From assembly GCA_945906965.1 (NCBI GenBank), contig CAMDRP010000018.1, forward strand, positions 1-38,254: a stretch of DNA of 38,254 nt. Direction: 5' to 3'. Below are positions 19,030-26,781 of the stretch, one piece after another (position 1 is the first letter of the stretch; each line of letters starts with the position of its first letter). This DNA comes from Opitutus sp. GAS368. Lineage in GTDB: Bacteria > Verrucomicrobiota > Verrucomicrobiia > Opitutales > Opitutaceae. The notes beneath the pieces are model-generated. The model was not told the DNA's origin. It saw nothing but the letters and a program-made list of their open reading frames with translations, and did no database searches. The translations under genes were made by a program, and so were the position numbers.

Positions 19030-20643
19030 TCAATACGTGATCGTCTCGCCCGGCAGAATCGGAGTCGTGACGGGCAAGCCGCGCGCGGGGCAAAGTTGTT
19101 CGAAGGCGTAGCCGAGGGCGAGCAAGCGGGCTTCGCTGAAAGCGGGGCCGATGAAGGAGAGTGTCACGGGCAACACGGGATCGGCGGTAAAACCCGCGGG
19201 GACGATCAGGTCGGGCCAACCGGTGACGTTGGCGAGGATGGCGACGGTGCCGTTGCCCACGGGCGCAGGGGTGACGTTGGCTTCTTTGATGGGGAGTGGC
19301 GGGCGCGCAGAGGTGGGGACGATGAAGGCGTCGAGTTTTTCCTGGGTCAGAAACCACGTGAGGTTTTCGCGCACGATTTTGCGGCCGTCTTCGAGGGCGC
19401 TGCGGTAGGGTTGGTCGGTGAGGGTGCCGGCTTTCTTTTCGCGGTGGTAGGCGTCGAGGCGGTTTTTGTTGGGCACCCAACCTTCTTTGGTCGGCTCAGT
19501 GATTTTCTCGGACAGGGCGATGATGGCGTCGTGGTTTTTGGGGAGATCTTTGCGCGGGAGAGTCGCGAGGTAGGCGTTGATTTGGTAGCGGAACTCGGGG
19601 TCGCGGATGGCTAAGTAAAGTCCACTATTCACCCCGAGAACGAAGCGCGGGAGTTTGATTTCAACCACGGTCGCTCCGGCGCGGCGGAGGAGAGCGAGGG
19701 CGGTTTCGGTCACGGCATCGACGCCGGCATCGAGCTTCATGTAATCGCGCAACAAGCCGAGGCGGGCGCCGCGCAGGGCCTCGGGTTTAAGGGCGGCGGT
19801 GTAGTCGGCGGAAATTTTTCCAGTGTTGGCGGCGGTGGCGGGATCGCGGGGATCGGGGCCGGCCATGACGTTGAGGGCGGCAGCGAGGTCAGCGACGTTG
19901 CGGGCCATGGGGCCAACCGTGTCGAGCGCGAGCGCGAGGGGAATGATGCCGCCGCGGCCGTTGAGTCCGAGCGTGGGTTTGAGGCCCACGATGCCGTTGG
20001 CAGAGGCAGGACCGCGGATGGAGCCGCCGGTATCGGTGCCGAGGCCGAAGACCGCGAACCCGGCCGCGATGCCCGCGCCCGTGCCGCCGCTAGAACCGGA
20101 GGGCGTGCGGTCGAGGACATGGGGATTAAGCATCTGGCCGCCCAACGTGCTGATCGCGGCGCCGCTAGCGAACTCACTTAAGTTGGACTTGGCCAAGATC
20201 ACGCAACCGGCGGCGCGGAGGCGGCGGGTTTGTTCGGCGTCTTGGGGCGGGAGGGAATCGCGGAGCGCGTAAAAGCCGCCGGTGGTGGGGAGATCGGCGG
20301 TGTCGATGTTGTCCTTGAGGAGAATGGGGATGCCGTGAAGCGGGCCGCGGGTTTTGCCGGCTTGGCGCTCGGCGTCGAGGGCGCGGGCTTCGTCGAGGGC
20401 TTTGGGGTTGAGCGTGATGAGGGCGTGCAATTTGGGGCCGGCTTGCTCGTAGGCAGCAATGCGAGCGAGGAAGAGCTGGGTGAGTTTCTCGGCCGAAAGC
20501 GCGCCAGCCTGCATCGCAGCTTGGAGCTGGGCGACGCTCGCATCGGTGAGCGTCACGGTGGTCGCGCGCAGCATCGGGGCGAGGGCGAGTAAAAAACCGA
20601 GACCGAGGGTGCTCAGGCGCAGGGGGAGGCGAAGAGGGATCAT
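19030..20643 (-). CDS. Amidase-signature enzyme, exported
   Basis: The 537-residue protein belongs to the amidase signature family (Ser-cisSer-Lys triad). The lysine sits in GIPILLKDNIDT, and the serine cluster in TPSGSSGGTGAGIAAGFAVF; GTDTGGSIRGPASANGIVGLKP is the family core. The first about 27 residues form a signal peptide (MIPLRLPLRL, then a hydrophobic core to LRATT), so it acts in the periplasm or outside. The likely reaction is hydrolysis of a carboxamide. The start at 20643 is chosen because of the signal peptide; longer readings would include unrelated sequence. It converges on the NadR kinase. Confidence 0.9.
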   Translation of the reverse strand: MIPLRLPLRLSTLGLGFLLALAPMLRATTVTLTDASVAQLQAAMQAGALSAEKLTQLFLARIAAYEQAGPKLHALITLNPKALDEARALDAERQAGKTRGPLHGIPILLKDNIDTADLPTTGGFYALRDSLPPQDAEQTRRLRAAGCVILAKSNLSEFASGAAISTLGGQMLNPHVLDRTPSGSSGGTGAGIAAGFAVFGLGTDTGGSIRGPASANGIVGLKPTLGLNGRGGIIPLALALDTVGPMARNVADLAAALNVMAGPDPRDPATAANTGKISADYTAALKPEALRGARLGLLRDYMKLDAGVDAVTETALALLRRAGATVVEIKLPRFVLGVNSGLYLAIRDPEFRYQINAYLATLPRKDLPKNHDAIIALSEKITEPTKEGWVPNKNRLDAYHREKKAGTLTDQPYRSALEDGRKIVRENLTWFLTQEKLDAFIVPTSARPPLPIKEANVTPAPVGNGTVAILANVTGWPDLIVPAGFTADPVLPVTLSFIGPAFSEARLLALGYAFEQLCPARGLPVTTPILPGETITY

Positions 20644-20778: not shown

Positions 20779-21729
20779 ATGAACCGACGTGAATTTGTGC
20801 AAGGCTCCGCGGCGTTGGCGACAGCGATGGCGCTGCAGCCTAAAGCCCAAGCGGCGAATGCGCCGCAGCGCGCGTTTAAAATCGCGCTCACGCCGGGCAG
20901 CATCGGCGTCTCCGTCGCGAGCCAGCGCGAGCTCAACGCACTCGCGCACCGCCACGGCTTCGAGGCGGTGGAACCCATGTCCGCGGACATTGCCGGAATG
21001 GCGCCCGCGCAACTCGCGGAGCTCGGCGCGGATCTCGGCGCGAAGCATTTAGGGTGGGCGGCGGCGGGTTTGCCCGTGGATTTCCGCAAGGATGACGCGA
21101 CCTATCGCGCCGGGTTGAATGAACTCCCTAAAATTGCCGCCGGCCTGCAACGCGCGGGCGTGCGCCGCGTTGGCACGTGGTTGATGCCGTGCAGTAACGA
21201 GCTCACGTATCGCGCTAATTTCAAACAACACCTCGCGCGCTTGGGTGAAATCGCCCGAATTTTAAAAGATCACGGCCTGCGCTTCGGTCTCGAGTATGTG
21301 GGCACGCAAAGCGTGCTAGTGGGGCGCAAATACCCATTTGTGCACACCCTGGCGGAGACGCGGGAGCTAATCGCCGAGATTGGCCACGATCAGGTCGGGC
21401 TGGTCCTCGACAGTTGGCATTGGTGGCAGGCCGGCGATACGGTGGCCGAGCTGAAGGCGTTGAAAAATGCAGAAATCGTAAGCGTCGATCTCAACGATGC
21501 GCCGAAGGCTATAGCTAAAGGACAACAGAAGGACGGCGAGCGCGAGTTGCCAGTGGCGACCGGCGTGATCGATACTGCGGCCTTTCTTGGGGCGCTCGTG
21601 GCGGTGGGTTACGACGGACCGATGCGCGCTGAGCCGTTTAATAAAATCGTCAACGCGCTGGACAATGAGCCGGCCTGCGCGGTTTCCGTCGCGGCGATGC
21701 GTCAAGCCGTGAGCTTAATCGGCGGCTGA
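20779..21729 (+). CDS. Sugar phosphate isomerase/epimerase-like TIM barrel, Tat-exported
   Basis: The 316-residue protein begins with a Tat-type signal (MNRREFVQGSAALATAMA, probable cleavage after AQA). The mature part has the xylose isomerase-like TIM barrel: FKIALTPGSIGV, GFEAVEPMS, LRFGLEYVG (metal ligand E), GLVLDSWHWWQ (D and H) and a final MRAEPFN (E). Members isomerise or epimerise keto-sugars and inositol derivatives. An exported member is unusual but common in some Verrucomicrobia and Planctomycetes. It is divergent from the amidase (135 bp between). Confidence 0.82.
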   Translation: MNRREFVQGSAALATAMALQPKAQAANAPQRAFKIALTPGSIGVSVASQRELNALAHRHGFEAVEPMSADIAGMAPAQLAELGADLGAKHLGWAAAGLPVDFRKDDATYRAGLNELPKIAAGLQRAGVRRVGTWLMPCSNELTYRANFKQHLARLGEIARILKDHGLRFGLEYVGTQSVLVGRKYPFVHTLAETRELIAEIGHDQVGLVLDSWHWWQAGDTVAELKALKNAEIVSVDLNDAPKAIAKGQQKDGERELPVATGVIDTAAFLGALVAVGYDGPMRAEPFNKIVNALDNEPACAVSVAAMRQAVSLIGG

Positions 21730-21749: not shown

Positions 21750-22949
21750 TTACCGGCTCAGGCGGGCGGTGACGGTGCGGATCGCTTGGGCGACTTTGGC
21801 GAGGTAGGCGTCGCTCATGGCTTCGTTCAGCGGGAGCACGACGCCGTCGGTTAGAATCGCTTCGGCGTGCGGGCAATGGACCTGGCGGTAGTCCATCGTG
21901 GTGAGGCCGGCGTCGCGTACGGGCCAGGCTCCGCCGAAGAAGTTGTGGTTTTGAAAGACACGGTAGCGGTAAACTGGCGTGGGAATGTAGCCAGCAGTGG
22001 CCATGGCGCCCTCGGTGCGCAGTGCTTCAACCCAAGCGGCACGAGTACAGCCGAGGCGAGCAAGGTCGAGGCGGAGAAAATAAAACCAGTAGCTATGGGT
22101 ATTGCCGGGGGCGACGTGGGGCGGAAGGACCCCGGGAAGATCGGCGAGCAGTGTCGTGAGGAAAGTCCCGGCGTGATGACGGCGGGCGGCGATGTCGGCC
22201 AGACGAGTGAGTTGCGCGGCGGCGACGGCGGCTTGGGGCTCGCTCATGCGGTAGTTGGGCGCGAGTTCGGCGGGGTCGCGGTAGCCGGGCGTGGTGCGGT
22301 CGTAGTGTTTGTCGCCCCACGGCGCGAGGGTGGGGCCGATGTCGGGGCGCGCGGTGGCGACGATGCCGCCGTCGCCGCAACTAAGGTGTTTATAGTCGTT
22401 AAAAGAGTAGCAGGCGATATCGGCCTCGAGGCCGACGGGGCGGCCCTGGTGGAGAGCGCCCCAAGCTTGCGCGCAGTCCTCGATGAGGGCGACGCCGTGC
22501 TCGCGGGCGAGGGTGGCGAGCGCGGTCGTGTCGGCGGGATTACCGGCGAGGTGTACGACCATGATCGCGCGCGTACGGGCGGTGAGCACGCGGCGGACGG
22601 CGGCGGTGTCTAGGTTGTAGGTAGCCGGATCGACGTCGGCAAAGACGGGCACGCCCTGTTGATAAAGAATACCAATGACCGAGCCCATGTCGGTGATAGG
22701 CGGCACGATCACTTCATCGCCGGGGCGCAGACGCAGCGCGGCAATGGCGACGTGCAGGGCGGCAGAGCCCGAGGATGTGGCGAAGAGATGGGGGAACGGG
22801 TAGTGGCGGCGAAACTCCGCGGCGAGCGCGCTGGTTTGTGGGCCCTGCCAATAAAACAAAGAATCTTGATCCACCATCGCGGTGAGGCGGGCGAGCTCGG
22901 GCGCGCCCCAACGGCGCGGGCGGGGAAGCGGTTCGTCGACGATGGGCAT
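21750..22949 (-). CDS. DegT/DnrJ/EryC1/StrS-family PLP aminotransferase
   Basis: The 399-residue protein is a fold-type I PLP enzyme of the sugar/AHBA aminotransferase family. The PLP lysine is K187 (YSFNDYKHLSCGDGG), the pyridine-binding aspartate is in ALIEDCAQAWGA (D158), and ATSSGSAALHVAIAAL is the phosphate site. AHBA synthases and keto-sugar aminotransferases are in this group. I start at ATG 22949; the frame extends further but without family match. It is the last gene of a three-gene minus-strand arm, 52 bp after the amidohydrolase. The substrate is unknown, probably a keto-sugar or cyclitol. Confidence 0.89.
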   Translation of the reverse strand: MPIVDEPLPRPRRWGAPELARLTAMVDQDSLFYWQGPQTSALAAEFRRHYPFPHLFATSSGSAALHVAIAALRLRPGDEVIVPPITDMGSVIGILYQQGVPVFADVDPATYNLDTAAVRRVLTARTRAIMVVHLAGNPADTTALATLAREHGVALIEDCAQAWGALHQGRPVGLEADIACYSFNDYKHLSCGDGGIVATARPDIGPTLAPWGDKHYDRTTPGYRDPAELAPNYRMSEPQAAVAAAQLTRLADIAARRHHAGTFLTTLLADLPGVLPPHVAPGNTHSYWFYFLRLDLARLGCTRAAWVEALRTEGAMATAGYIPTPVYRYRVFQNHNFFGGAWPVRDAGLTTMDYRQVHCPHAEAILTDGVVLPLNEAMSDAYLAKVAQAIRTVTARLSR

Positions 22950-23001
22950 CGGGAAAGTGTAGCGCGGAGAGAAAGAAAAAGTAAACGAGCTGACGGCCAC
23001 C

Positions 23002-23757
23002 TCAGAGGCCGAAGAGCCGCGTGGCGTTGGCGGAGCCGATGAGGGCAAGGGTTTTGGCGGGGAGGCGAGCGAGGCGGAGCTTATCGACTTGAGCGCGGGT
23101 GTCGAAGAGCGGCGTGTTGGTCCCCAGAAGGAGACGGCGCGCGGGAATTTTTTGCGTGAGCACAGCGAGCGTGTTTAACCATTCGGCAAAGGCGATATCG
23201 GCGGAGAAATTTTCGTGCGCGGCGGCGAGCGTTTCGATCTCGGGCTTGTAGAGGCCGGAGCACAGAAAATGCGTGCTAGGGAAACGCGCGAGGAAAGCCG
23301 CGACCTGAGTGACCGGCAGGCCCTTAAGGGCGAGCGCGTGGTAACGGTGGCGTTCGTCTTCCAGGCGCGTGGCGACGATCAGGCGCAGGCCGGCGGCGTT
23401 AACGGCATCGATGAACGGCGCGAGGGACGGCAAGCGTAGCGAATAATTGTGGTAGGCGGGAATGATTTTTACCGCGCGGATCGGCGCAGCGGCAAGACAG
23501 GCGGCCAGGTGCTCACGCCAAGTGGCAAGAGCCGGGTTGATCACAGGAACCGGTAGCAATGCCGGTGTGCGTCGGACCGCGGCAAACAACGCGTGGTTGG
23601 CCGTCATGGGCTCTGGCAGAAAAACCGCACCGAGATGCGAAACAAGGGCGCGGTTGATTCCGTGGCTTTTAAGGTGCGCAACAAGTTGGGGCGCGGTGCG
23701 CTCGGGGAGCGGTGCGAAAGGCCAGGGACCGAGGGCGACGTGAGCGTCGATGAGCAT
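23002..23757 (-). CDS. Amidohydrolase_2-like TIM barrel with degenerate metal site
   Basis: The 251-residue protein aligns by eye with the next gene upstream as an amidohydrolase_2 barrel (MLIDAHVALGPWPF; PIRAVKIIPAYHNY; FADIAFAEWL-type middle; RRLLLGTNTPLF end). Its metal ligands look lost: the HxH motif is HVA, the histidine strand reads LRLIVATRLE, and the final G-S-D is G-T-N. It may be a structural partner of its neighbour or have a metal-independent reaction. Its start is one base from the upstream gene's stop, so the two are tightly coupled. Confidence 0.8.
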   Translation of the reverse strand: MLIDAHVALGPWPFAPLPERTAPQLVAHLKSHGINRALVSHLGAVFLPEPMTANHALFAAVRRTPALLPVPVINPALATWREHLAACLAAAPIRAVKIIPAYHNYSLRLPSLAPFIDAVNAAGLRLIVATRLEDERHRYHALALKGLPVTQVAAFLARFPSTHFLCSGLYKPEIETLAAAHENFSADIAFAEWLNTLAVLTQKIPARRLLLGTNTPLFDTRAQVDKLRLARLPAKTLALIGSANATRLFGL

Positions 23758-23758
23758 G

Positions 23759-24526
23759 TTAAAGGCGGAAAAGTTTCGCGGCGTTTTCGTGAAGAATCAG
23801 GCGACGTTGCATGGCGCTGAGGCGGGCGCCCAGGACACGGCCCACGGTTACGCTGGTTTCTCGAATCGGTAAATCGGAACCGTAAAGGATGCGCTCGGCC
23901 CCGAGTTCTTGAACGGCGAAATCGAGAATCTCGGCTTCGGGATAAGCACCCGAGGTATCGACAAAAAGATTAGGTAGGCCCTTGGCTTCGAGGACACCGC
24001 GGTAGCCGCAGCCCGTCAGGTGCGCCATGATCACCCTGACATCAGGATGACGCCGCGCGAGCCACGCCGTATCGGCTGGATCGCTGTGAAAACGACGTTG
24101 ATGGATGTTGGTCTGGCTCCAGGTGTGTTGAAGTACGACGAGATTCCAGCGGCGAGCTGCAGCCATGACCGCGCCCATGCAGGCGTCGCGGGCGTTGTTG
24201 GAAATTTCCAGTTTGATACCCCGAAAACCGTGCTGGGTGACGCAACGCTCCACCTCGCGCTCGACCGCGCGTGCGCCGAGGGTGGGATTGAGGCAACAGA
24301 ACCCGATAAAATAATCCGGGTGCCAACGCTTTAGCTGCGCCGTTTCGTCGTTGATGCGGCGACATTGAGCGGCGCTGGGCAAACGTCCGTGGACGAGCAC
24401 ATCGCCGAGAGCGACCATCTTGACGATGCCATGGGCACGGCCGTGGGCGACCAGCCGGCGAGCGGCGGCAGGGGTCGCGCCGTCGTGCATGAAGACGGGG
24501 TGCGTGTGGGCGTCGATGATGCGCAT
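23759..24526 (-). CDS. Metal-dependent amidohydrolase (amidohydrolase_2)
   Basis: The 255-residue TIM-barrel hydrolase carries a complete set of metal ligands: HTH at residues 7-9 (IIDAHTHPVF), GIKLEIS, the strand VVLQHTWS, IMAHLTGCGY and the aspartate in ILYGSDLPI. Family members hydrolyse lactones, decarboxylate aromatic acids or act on pyrone carboxylates. It is the first gene of the minus arm, directly facing the divergent operator. Its ATG lies inside one arm of a 12-bp inverted repeat (24524-24535). Confidence 0.87.
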   Translation of the reverse strand: MRIIDAHTHPVFMHDGATPAAARRLVAHGRAHGIVKMVALGDVLVHGRLPSAAQCRRINDETAQLKRWHPDYFIGFCCLNPTLGARAVEREVERCVTQHGFRGIKLEISNNARDACMGAVMAAARRWNLVVLQHTWSQTNIHQRRFHSDPADTAWLARRHPDVRVIMAHLTGCGYRGVLEAKGLPNLFVDTSGAYPEAEILDFAVQELGAERILYGSDLPIRETSVTVGRVLGARLSAMQRRLILHENAAKLFRL

Positions 24527-24628
24527 GAAATTTCGCTACGATTGCGCTTGGCTTTTCCGAGGGGGCGCGACGGAAAACAGGGGCGCAATTACGGCATTCG
24601 TCCATTCCTAATCTTCCGAAATTTCATG
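24524..24628. promoter_or_regulatory. Divergent promoter region with nested inverted repeats
   Basis: The 99 bp between the two divergent starts hold two nested, exactly symmetric pairs centred on 24565: ATTGCGC (24541-24547) with GCGCAAT (24583-24589), and TTTTCCG (24553-24559) with CGGAAAA (24571-24577), each half separated by 5 bp. In addition both start codons sit in an outer 12-bp inverted repeat, CATGAAATTTCG (24524-24535) and CGAAATTTCATG (24617-24628). I infer an operator for a dimeric regulator that controls both arms. No clear -35/-10 pair was seen. Confidence 0.6.
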
Positions 24629-25657
24629 TCCACCCCTCCTTTGAACGACGAACAGATCGAAGCGCTCCTCTCGGAACCGACCTCCGGAGCCATCGCGACG
24701 GTGCGGGCGCTCGAGGGAGATTTCATGGTTTTAGGCGTGGGCGGGAAGATGGGGACGACGACGGCGTTGATGTTGCGCCGGGCGCTGGATGCCGCCGGGA
24801 AACGAGCCATTAAAGTTTACGGCGTGTCGCGCTTTAGCCGCCCTGAGGCGGCGGAGGCGTTGCGGCGCGGCGGCGTGGAACCCATCGCGTGCGATCTCGC
24901 CGATGCGGCGCAAGTGGCCCAACTCCCGCGCGTGACCAATGTCGAATACCTCGCCGGGCAAAAATTTGGTACCGACAGTGCACCTGGCGAGACGTGGATC
25001 CAAAACACGATCGTCCCTTCGCTTGTCGCCGAGCATTTCAAGGCCTCGCGCATCGTGGTGTTTTCCACGGGCTGCGTGTACCCGTTCGTAGCGGTCGATG
25101 GACCCGGCGCCAACGAGACGACGCCGGTGGCGTTTCTCGGCGAATACGCGAGCACCTGCGTTGGCCGTGAACGCGTGTTCGGACATTTCGCGCAGAAACA
25201 CGGAACACGGCAGTTAATGTACCGTTTAAATTACGCGGTGGAATTGCGTTACGGCGTGCTCGTGGACGTAGGCACAGCCGTACTACGCGGTACCCCGGTG
25301 GATATAACGATGGGCGCTTTTAACCTCATCTGGCAGGGCGATGCGTGCGCGCGGGCGATCCAGTGCCTCGAGCACACGGCTAATCCGCCGAAGATTTTGA
25401 ATATCACCGGATCAGAGAAGATTTCGATCCGCTTGGTGGCGGAGAAATTCGGCGCGATTTTCGGAAAAACTCCGGTTTTGAAAGGTACACCGGCCCAAGA
25501 GGCGTGGTTGGCGGATGCGAGCGAATCAATCCGGCTCTTCGGTCAGCCTACTAAGACCTTGGACGAGTTAATCGCGCTCGTGGCGCAGCATGTGAGTGCG
25601 GGTGGGCGCTTGTTGGGCAAGCCCACACATTTCGAAGCGCGTGACGGGAAATTTTAA
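24626..25657 (+). CDS. NAD-dependent epimerase/dehydratase-like SDR lacking the catalytic Lys
   Basis: The 343-residue extended SDR protein has the nucleotide loop GVGGKMGTTTALM (residues 37-43 for the glycines), the serine-containing strand VVFSTGCVYPF (S147, T148) and the site where Y-x-x-x-K is expected. There Tyr is present (Y174) but residue 178 is Cys (EYASTCVGRE) instead of Lys. RLNYAVELRYG is the usual substrate block. It may have a non-standard proton relay or act as a binding protein. It is first in the plus arm and 13 bp from the aldolase gene. Confidence 0.86.
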   Translation: MSTPPLNDEQIEALLSEPTSGAIATVRALEGDFMVLGVGGKMGTTTALMLRRALDAAGKRAIKVYGVSRFSRPEAAEALRRGGVEPIACDLADAAQVAQLPRVTNVEYLAGQKFGTDSAPGETWIQNTIVPSLVAEHFKASRIVVFSTGCVYPFVAVDGPGANETTPVAFLGEYASTCVGRERVFGHFAQKHGTRQLMYRLNYAVELRYGVLVDVGTAVLRGTPVDITMGAFNLIWQGDACARAIQCLEHTANPPKILNITGSEKISIRLVAEKFGAIFGKTPVLKGTPAQEAWLADASESIRLFGQPTKTLDELIALVAQHVSAGGRLLGKPTHFEARDGKF

Positions 25658-25670
25658 AAATTTAGCAGCT

Positions 25671-26726
25671 ATGACAATCTCCGCTATCCGATCTCACCTA
25701 ATCGACGGCCACGCAATCCCGGCGCAACCGTTGGCGCTCGATGCGCAGCGCAAATTTTCGGAGCGTCATCAGCGCGCGATCACGCGTTACTATATGGCCT
25801 CGGGCGTCGGCGGTCTCGCGGTGGGCGTGCATTCTACGCAATTCGAGATTCGCGAGCCGCAGTACGGTTTATTCAAACCCGTGCTCGAGTTGGCCGCGCG
25901 CACGATCGACGAAGAACTCAGGCAGATGCCTCGGCCGTTTATCAAAATTGCCGGCGTATGCGGTCGCACAGAACAGGCGCTCCGCGAGGCCGAGATCGCG
26001 CAAGGCTACGGCTATCACGCGGGGCTGTTGAGTTTGTCGGCGTACAAAAATGACACCGAAGACGAAATGATCGCGCATTGTCGGCGTGTGGCGGAAGTGT
26101 TTCCCGTTGTTGGATTCTATCTGCAACCCGCCGCGGGCGGACGTTTGCTCGGTTACTCGTTTTGGCGGCGCTTCGCTGAGATTGCTAACGTGGTCGCGAT
26201 CAAGATCGCGCCGTTTAATCGTTATCAAACAATCGACGTGGTGCGCGCCGTCCTCGAGGCAGGGCGCGATGATATCGCGATTTATACCGGCAACGACGAC
26301 AGCATTGTAGTCGATCTATTGACGCCGTTCACCTTCGAGGTGGGCGGTAAAAAAGTGACGCGTCACATCGCGGGCGGACTGCTCGGGCATTGGGGCGTGT
26401 GGACACATAAGGCCGTGGCATTGCTCAACGATCTCAAGCGCGCGCGGCAGAATGCCACGCTCGACGCGCAGTGGCTGGATACGGCGATCGCGGTGACGGA
26501 CATGAACGCGGCGCTGTTTGATTCGGCGAATAAATTTACGGGCTGCATTCCGGGTATTTTGGAAGTGCTGCGTCGGCAGGGACTCGTGCCGACGAATCTG
26601 TGTTTAAATCCGCACGAAGTTTTATCGCCCGGCCAGGCCGAGGAATTGACGCGCGTGGCCGCAGCTTATCCGGAGCTGACGGACGATGCCTTTGTGGCCG
26701 AGCACCTCTCGCGTTGGTTGAGCTGA
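25671..26726 (+). CDS. Dihydrodipicolinate synthase-family aldolase
   Basis: The 351-residue protein is a Schiff-base aldolase/dehydratase of the DapA/NAL superfamily and longer than DapA (about 290). The Schiff-base lysine appears in VVAIKIAPFNRYQT, the tyrosine in VGFYLQPAAGG, and the substrate loop GVGGLAVGVHSTQF takes the place of the T-T-G-E motif. Members cleave or dehydrate keto-deoxy sugar acids. The long C-terminal part (SLSPGQAEEL-like end) is family-typical for the uncharacterised branch. It is translated right after the SDR (13 bp), in one operon. Confidence 0.85.
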   Translation: MTISAIRSHLIDGHAIPAQPLALDAQRKFSERHQRAITRYYMASGVGGLAVGVHSTQFEIREPQYGLFKPVLELAARTIDEELRQMPRPFIKIAGVCGRTEQALREAEIAQGYGYHAGLLSLSAYKNDTEDEMIAHCRRVAEVFPVVGFYLQPAAGGRLLGYSFWRRFAEIANVVAIKIAPFNRYQTIDVVRAVLEAGRDDIAIYTGNDDSIVVDLLTPFTFEVGGKKVTRHIAGGLLGHWGVWTHKAVALLNDLKRARQNATLDAQWLDTAIAVTDMNAALFDSANKFTGCIPGILEVLRRQGLVPTNLCLNPHEVLSPGQAEELTRVAAAYPELTDDAFVAEHLSRWLS

Positions 26727-26732
26727 GGTTTG

Positions 26733-26781
26733 GGGCCGGTCGAACGGCCCAAAAAAACCGGCGCCGTGAGGGGCGCCGGTT
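26733..26781 (-). terminator. Terminator of the coiled-coil protein gene
   Basis: AACCGGCGCC (26756-26765) pairs with GGCGCCGGTT (26772-26781) around a 6-base loop. On the minus strand seven T follow. A second hairpin, GGGCCG/CGGCCC (26733-26750), lies just beyond, and may serve the converging plus-strand gene. Confidence 0.8.

Follow-up and report, generated by a model that had tools for sequence, protein, structure and literature searches.

A divergent cluster of five genes was analysed in a stretch of 38,254 nucleotides from Opitutus sp. GAS368 (contig CAMDRP010000018.1), hereafter called the window. The cluster encodes a DegT-family aminotransferase (DegT), two proteins of amidohydrolase fold (AHa and AHb), an oxidoreductase-like protein of the short-chain dehydrogenase/reductase fold (SDR) and an aldolase-like protein (ALD). 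The five genes constitute two modules, SDR+ALD and AHa+AHb(+DegT), which co-occur above background. The module is real, conserved and, as far as searched, undescribed, and it is most likely catabolic; it is better seen as a variant within oxidative sugar-acid catabolism than as a system of a new kind. Tentatively, and with confidence somewhat short of even, one catabolic pathway of two modules is proposed, in which an N-acylated amino-sugar acid would undergo aldol cleavage, leading to serine in many relatives. From the observed gene set, conservation, co-occurrence and active-site residues, and from the predicted folds, we infer every substrate, reaction and complex named below.

21750-22949, minus strand: DegT, DegT/DnrJ/EryC1/StrS-family pyridoxal phosphate (PLP) aminotransferase (Pfam PF01041 DegT_DnrJ_EryC1, 258.8 bits)
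23002-23757, minus strand: AHb, protein of Amidohydro_2 fold whose metal site is broken; presumed to be the non-catalytic partner of AHa (PF04909, 33.4 bits)
23759-24526, minus strand: AHa, metal-dependent amidohydrolase with ligands HxH (7, 9), H134, H169 and D218 (PF04909, 97.8 bits)
24527-24625, no strand: divergent intergenic region of 99 bp with a 12-bp inverted repeat across both start codons
24626-25657, plus strand: SDR, extended-SDR-fold protein (PF01370 Epimerase, 26.7 bits)
25671-26726, plus strand: ALD, aldolase-type (beta/alpha)8 protein of the dihydrodipicolinate synthase/N-acetylneuraminate lyase (DHDPS/NAL) superfamily (PF00701 DHDPS, 30.1 bits)
26756-26781, minus strand: terminator-like stem-loop of 10 pairs, located where the 3' ends of ALD and of the following, oppositely oriented gene face each other (consensus match only)

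The five genes that a first-pass annotation had claimed at 21750-26726 were all present there, in two divergent arms with a 99-bp gap. Pfam agreed with the family names given, all five matches lying above the gathering cut-offs, with those of SDR and ALD being weak. In NCBIfam, none of the five proteins reached a model's own cut-off. For ALD and SDR, one match each was found in the window's genome, which is 96.8% complete.

Conservation and co-occurrence of the two modules

In a search of other genomes, the divergent five-gene set was found together in the window and ten relatives (G060, G018, G283, G091, G271, L138, L139, L140, L142 and L144). A TetR gene stands between the arms in L138, and DegT runs into the contig end in L144. 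DegT was not seen in L040 (G075) and is inverted in L150. In G097 (L122), from another family, all five genes are co-directional, with AHa-AHb-DegT followed after 0.7 kb by SDR-ALD. The first-pass annotation had named genes not kept together in relatives as a refutation of its reading, and this refutation does not apply within the window's family.

Among 288 genomes of the phylum, ALD was found in 69 at an E-value of 0.001 and in 61 below 1e-100, the limit for a strong match. AHa was detected in 27 genomes at a threshold of 1e-30, 23 of them with a strong ALD. Within the window's family, all 12 genomes with AHa had ALD (Fisher test, 2.0e-5, phylogeny not corrected); ALD was present in 14 genomes of the family, two of them without AHa, and none of the 11 genomes without ALD had AHa. 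Outside the family, ALD occurred in 11 of the 15 AHa genomes against a background of 47/263 (1.6e-6, likewise uncorrected). The 61-genome tally and the Fisher table are hand tallies from the ALD and AHa match tables and ignore phylogeny. The single function claimed earlier is supported by this joint conservation and genome co-occurrence of both modules.

That the modules are chance neighbours with two separate functions, SDR-ALD in one pathway and AHa-AHb-DegT in another, is unlikely. Each module does occur alone: 38 of the 61 genomes with a strong ALD had no AHa at 1e-30, 4 of the 27 AHa genomes had no strong ALD, and most ALD loci outside the window's family hold the core SDR-ALD pair without the AH arm. 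In seven places within the same order (G134, G075:C10, G169, G088, G099, G143 and G010), the AH pair and ALD share a contig at a distance of about 5-47 kb. Against separate functions stand the genome co-occurrence above background and the joining of all five genes, co-directional in another family (L122) and as divergent arms in eleven members, of which the window is one. In four members of the window's family, G088, G143, G099 and G010 (L111-L119 with L043, L044, L046 and L047), the modules flank a stretch of about 41-47 kb with similar genes, among which Pfam identified, for the G088 members, an alpha-L-rhamnosidase, M28 and S9 peptidases, a GxGYxYP protein and sodium-solute symporters.

An SDR homologue was present in 37 of 40 phylum neighbourhoods, about 2 kb off and on the other strand in L049, and was not found in L055, L059 and L064. 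Among the named loci, which are the best 80 of 594 confirmed candidates and lean to close relatives, SDR lay within 2.5 kb of ALD in 66, farther away in one and was not found in 13; the closest ALD relatives among these were Opitutaceae and other Verrucomicrobiota. Of 135 distinct loci (140 loci less five duplicate pairs), 109 had an SDR called no more than 4 kb from ALD. The gene calls came from a simple caller that misses or truncates some genes, so the neighbour counts are lower bounds.

Judged by record titles and plasmid taxonomy, the SDR-ALD pair occurs in more than 100 loci of about ten phyla. It was found on plasmids of Paenibacillus, Nitratireductor, Aquisphaera, Tistrella, Streptomyces, Rhodococcus, Mesobacillus, Sulfitobacter, Glaciihabitans and Prescottella, sometimes with one intervening gene or in reversed order. 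In the annotated plasmid records the names are general only: SDR is entered as 'NAD-dependent epimerase/dehydratase family protein' or 'NAD(P)-dependent oxidoreductase', and ALD as 'dihydrodipicolinate synthase family protein' or 'hypothetical protein'. A tested substrate for the pair would assign a role to a large number of catabolic gene groups that are blank at present.

Folds and active sites of the five proteins

The AlphaFold2 model of SDR had a predicted local distance difference test score (pLDDT) of 95.0. Its best solved fold was TerB (6nd7; Z 31.6, root-mean-square deviation 2.5, 291 aligned residues, 22% identity), which was also the best profile match. The extended-SDR Rossmann fold is present with its GxxGxxG motif, GxxGKMG in the window, G37, G40 and G43 being found in 114 of 114 SDR sequences. 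Ser147 was kept in all 45 ungapped rows and Tyr174 in 46 of 46. The lysine of YxxxK was found in 0 of 46, with Cys (39), Thr (6) or Ala (1) at this position (Cys178 in the window); in the wider set the position held Cys in 101 of 114 sequences and Cys, Thr or Ala in 111. Lys41, Lys113, Arg181 and Glu182 were invariant among the 46 sequences, and it may be, as a guess from the alignment, that another lysine of SDR replaces the role of the YxxxK lysine. The SDR family is a natural example of an SDR without this lysine, with the unusual active site kept across phyla. TerB is the NADP-dependent oxidoreductase of terfestatin biosynthesis and was, by its entry title, crystallised with polyporic acid. 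The SDR neighbourhoods look catabolic, and no function was derived from the likeness.

The ALD model (pLDDT 95.7) had N-acetylneuraminate lyases as its best Foldseek matches (5c54, E 4.6e-15), and in a second structural comparison the DHDPS 3pb2 came out on top (Z 33.9, root-mean-square deviation 2.3, 296 aligned residues). With the DHDPS/NAL superfamily ALD shares the (beta/alpha)8 or TIM-barrel fold, the Schiff-base lysine and, in most members, the active-site tyrosine. Lys178 and Tyr150 were kept in 55 of 55 sequences; in a separate 20-sequence alignment Lys178 was kept in 20 and Tyr150 in 17, being replaced in L010, L036 and L133. ALD differs from the superfamily in its length of 351 aa (solved members about 290-310) and in signatures of its own, FYLQPAxGGR, APFNRYQT, YTGNDD and GGLLGHW, and it is about 14-21% identical to solved members. 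In place of the pyruvate-carboxylate motif GTTGE it carries GVH(S/T)TQFEIR, the GVH(S/T)TQF part holding throughout the 55 rows except for three G52A and one Q57G. Which residues stand for the Thr pair of GTTGE is ambiguous by one position in the alignment, and the idea that the ALD loop has lost both threonines was dropped for this one-residue ambiguity.

An AHb match was found directly beside AHa in all 28 AHa places (AHa at 1e-30). Each of the AHa metal ligands HxH, H134, H169 and D218 was present in 19 or all of the 20 rows; the sole gap comes from a gene call truncated at the start. The nearest solved sequences were Amidohydro_2 proteins, mostly decarboxylases (E 1.8e-10). Compared with these decarboxylases (2,3-dihydroxybenzoate, gamma-resorcylate, ACMSD), AHa keeps the metal ligands; it is about 80 residues shorter, reaches 43.7 bits only and is always encoded beside AHb. 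By hhalign, AHb and AHa are homologues (probability 99.2 over 235 columns); AHb does not have the ligand set HxH, H, H, D. Among 27 AHb rows, the position of the catalytic Asp held His (19), Leu (5), Asn (2) or Cys (1) and in no case Asp, HxH was kept in one (L039), and the third ligand position aligned to His in 13; the fourth position was unaligned. The two amidohydrolases of the first-pass annotation do share the Amidohydro_2 fold; as two enzymes they did not hold up. By these residues AHb is presumed to be a non-catalytic partner, and AHa/AHb is a good candidate for an enzyme-pseudoenzyme pair.

The lysine motif separates aminotransferases of the DegT family from the dehydratase type, and the motif YKHLSCGDGG argues for DegT being an aminotransferase. 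DegT scored below every NCBIfam cut-off, with PseC as the best (177.7 of 423.5). A DegT orthologue directly follows AHb in 14 of the 28 AH places, window included. In three others, all of family f32, a class III aminotransferase takes this place (L091, 6555-7766; L096, 2683-3897; L128, 8809-10020), the family being assigned by Pfam for L128 and for a cluster mate in L075; this looks like one aminotransferase family replacing another. In the remaining 11 places, DegT lies about 5 kb away in L093, two weaker DegT matches lie at least 4 kb away in L127, a class III aminotransferase lies about 4 kb away in L075, and the rest show different genes, for example one for a GDSL lipase in L125, or a contig end.

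The first-pass annotation had further held that no described pathway contains this combination. A description of the five-gene set was not found in full-text searches; since these mostly leave out subscription literature and annotations seldom have names that can be searched for, this is weak evidence of novelty. The statement was overstated with regard to the oxidative hexuronate pathway, the closest described pathway known to have these superfamilies. Its Udh is an extended SDR and its KdgD belongs to the DHDPS family; AHa falls within the superfamily of the amidohydrolases acting on aldarolactones. The published account of the Agrobacterium pathway has Udh, Gli, Gci and KdgD, a dehydrogenase being followed by an amidohydrolase-superfamily isomerase and by KdgD (PMC6353982). 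The superfamilies of the dehydrogenase, the amidohydrolase and the KdgD-type protein are common to both systems, and the proteins of the window fail or do not reach the defining features of the pathway.

That the cluster is this known pathway, with SDR as uronate dehydrogenase, AHa as galactarolactone isomerase or lactonase and a KdgD-like ALD, is improbable, even with the same superfamilies gathered in one locus. The YxxxK lysine of SDR is gone in 46 of 46 sequences, leaving its Ser-Tyr-Lys site incomplete; the name uronate dehydrogenase is also absent among the SDR matches listed, which in itself excludes nothing. NCBIfam models of such enzymes were not reached: in NCBIfam, which alone was searched, ALD did not reach the KdgD/keto-deoxyglucarate aldolase equivalog and had TIGR00674 dapA as its sole match (23.7 of 206.15 bits). 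AHa is nearest to decarboxylases. The window set adds a PLP aminotransferase and AHb. By Pfam, an enolase-family cycloisomerase/dehydratase was not among the five genes and three neighbours scanned, the rest of the genome not being searched for it; a cluster holding an annotated 'mandelate racemase' was present in 5 of the 140 loci.

Neighbouring genes and the proposed pathway

The neighbours of the core pair were counted in two zones around ALD in the 135 loci, with 891 called genes within 4 kb and 712 at 4-8 kb. M20 deacylases were found within 4 kb in 28 loci (19 of ArgE type and 9 of amidohydrolase type), against 1+2 at 4-8 kb. They belong to two subfamilies, the ArgE/DapE type and the TIGR01891 type, and the presence of both in the same place suggests that a deacylation step is wanted. 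An Fe-S L-serine ammonia-lyase was encoded within 4 kb in 18 loci (alpha 17, beta 15) and in none at 4-8 kb. One protein of each kind was tested and passed the NCBIfam equivalog cut-off (alpha 288.4 of 243.2, beta 180.1 of 161.2); this enzyme beside ALD suggests that serine is formed. M20 and the ammonia-lyase were found together in 7 loci, and the order SDR-ALD-SDHb-SDHa-M20 recurs in several Paenibacillus and Cohnella loci (L172, L176, L178, L194 and L205). In the window's order, M20 was located within 2 kb of ALD in 11 of 15 hand-picked ALD genomes, which have 4-14 M20 matches each, and not in G000, G091, G271 and G187.

Other genes within 4 kb of ALD (in brackets, loci with the gene at 4-8 kb) were TetR in 32 loci (1), Gfo-like in 14 (4), DegT in 12 (4), AHb in 10 (3), AHa in 8 (4), 2-hydroxyacid dehydrogenase in 5 (5) and NagA-like in 2 (2). 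With equal counts in both zones, the 2-hydroxyacid dehydrogenase was rejected as a core partner. NagA-like, ROK, SIS and BadF genes were present in few loci, BadF in L127, where ALD was not called, and are in line with amino sugars. Taken together, M20, the ammonia-lyase and the few NagA-like, ROK and SIS genes speak more for an N-acylated amino compound. A cyclitol, the other substrate class that had been suggested, is not supported by anything seen. Near SDR-ALD in 14 loci of Paenibacillus and near relatives (e.g. L031, 7622-9007), a protein of about 450 aa was encoded with a GdpP-GGDEF-like match below the Pfam cut-off, perhaps a regulator.

In the proposed pathway, SDR and then ALD would act on a sugar acid. 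SDR, with its Rossmann fold and atypical active site, would make a keto form or remove water. ALD would form a Schiff base via Lys178 and perform a retro-aldol cut, releasing a small keto compound and a three-carbon fragment still N-acylated. A keto acid derived from an N-acyl hexosamine would in this way yield N-acyl-3-oxoalanine, to be reduced to N-acylserine, which in many relatives could be converted to serine by the M20 deacylase and to pyruvate by the ammonia-lyase. AHa, probably as a heteromer with AHb, would open or deacylate an intermediate, and DegT, or the class III aminotransferase in some genomes, would move the amino group. For N-acylated compounds, the route would correspond to the glucarate/galactarate (aldaric acid) route, in which the same cut releases tartronate semialdehyde as its aldol product. 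More doubtful is the full picture, a pathway for N-acylated amino-sugar acids that is both widespread and undescribed. In it, an SDR without the lysine and an aldolase of DHDPS fold whose carboxylate site has been rebuilt would lead to N-acyl serine, joined in Verrucomicrobiota by an accessory amidohydrolase enzyme of one active and one non-catalytic subunit and by a recruited aminotransferase.

Several points weigh against the N-acylated route. Without the usual catalytic lysine, oxidation by SDR is uncertain. No NAL entry is among the 50 matches listed in the second structural comparison of ALD, and with Foldseek favouring NAL and that comparison favouring DHDPS, the fold does not name the substrate. 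M20 enzymes cleave peptides too, and both M20 and the ammonia-lyase were unseen within 4 kb in 96 of the 135 loci. For ScmP, a characterised M20 enzyme, the rate with N-acetylserine is reported as only 2.8% of that with N-acetylcysteine (PMC12757645). An SDH_alpha match was not found in the window's genome, by a search whose control was positive in 9 of 14 genomes and which did not extend to the PLP-type serine dehydratase. No M20 gene is present at the window locus, and the closest match in the genome to the M20 of a relative has 30% identity. Lacking SDH_alpha and a close M20 orthologue, this genome must have a pathway ending of its own; the organism perhaps ends the pathway otherwise, for instance via DegT, or else the serine route is confined to other organisms with the core pair. 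Lastly, the sugar ABC transporter, Gfo/Idh/MocA and 2-hydroxyacid dehydrogenase contexts fit a neutral sugar equally.

A nitrogen-free route is a possible, rather unlikely alternative. Here SDR would oxidise a uronate or aldonate, and ALD would cleave a 2-keto sugar acid with a C3 hydroxyl to hydroxypyruvate, which would go to glycerate by the 2-hydroxyacid dehydrogenase, or to serine by DegT or another aminotransferase and on to pyruvate. The dehydrogenase gene directly follows ALD in two Streptomyces plasmids, and sugar ABC transporters and Gfo/Idh/MocA genes occur in the neighbourhoods. The route would account for serine without an acyl group and for a serine-handling DegT in a genome without SDH_alpha, with DegT near ALD in the 12 loci counted above. 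It leaves the M20 deacylases unexplained, at 28 loci against 5 for the dehydrogenase within 4 kb, and the latter is equally common farther out.

Intergenic dyad and flanking genes

In the window, a 12-bp exact inverted repeat, CATGAAATTTCG/CGAAATTTCATG, extends across the AHa and SDR start codons. An inverted repeat of at least 12 bp was found in 0 of 2000 mononucleotide shuffles. Further 7-bp arms, ATTGCGC/GCGCAAT and TTTTCCG/CGGAAAA, share one common centre. The dyad was not conserved: among the 11 relatives scanned (L138, too long, was left out) no exact inverted repeat exceeded 8 bp, and the right outer arm GCGCAAT aligned to TGACAAG in seven and to TGGCAAG in one of the eight aligned relatives (L041, L042, L138 and L144 left out). 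The symmetric operator that had been put forward as an argument for coupling of the arms is real in the window and was rejected as evidence of coupling, not being conserved in the 11 relatives scanned and the 8 aligned.

A palindrome, AATGAAATTTCATT, lies between AHa and SDR in L041 and L042, and occurs as AATGAAATTTCATC in L144. The part around ATGAAATTTCAT is common to these three loci, and the window has the GAAATTTC core twice, at both start codons. No regulator was tied to the palindrome of L041, L042 and L144 that shares this core with the window. The TetR genes near the core pair are candidate regulators elsewhere; by Pfam, none was among the genes scanned beside the window cluster.

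Terminator-like sites, as consensus matches, numbered 7 in the region against 6.7 expected in shuffles. Two genes next to the DegT end were excluded as members of the set: in the 40 phylum neighbourhoods compared, the TIM-barrel gene at 20779-21726 had no match and the amidase gene at 19033-20598 had none except the amidase in L060. The product of 20779-21726 is a xylose-isomerase-like TIM-barrel protein with the N-terminus MNRREF, a start which we take to resemble a twin-arginine signal.

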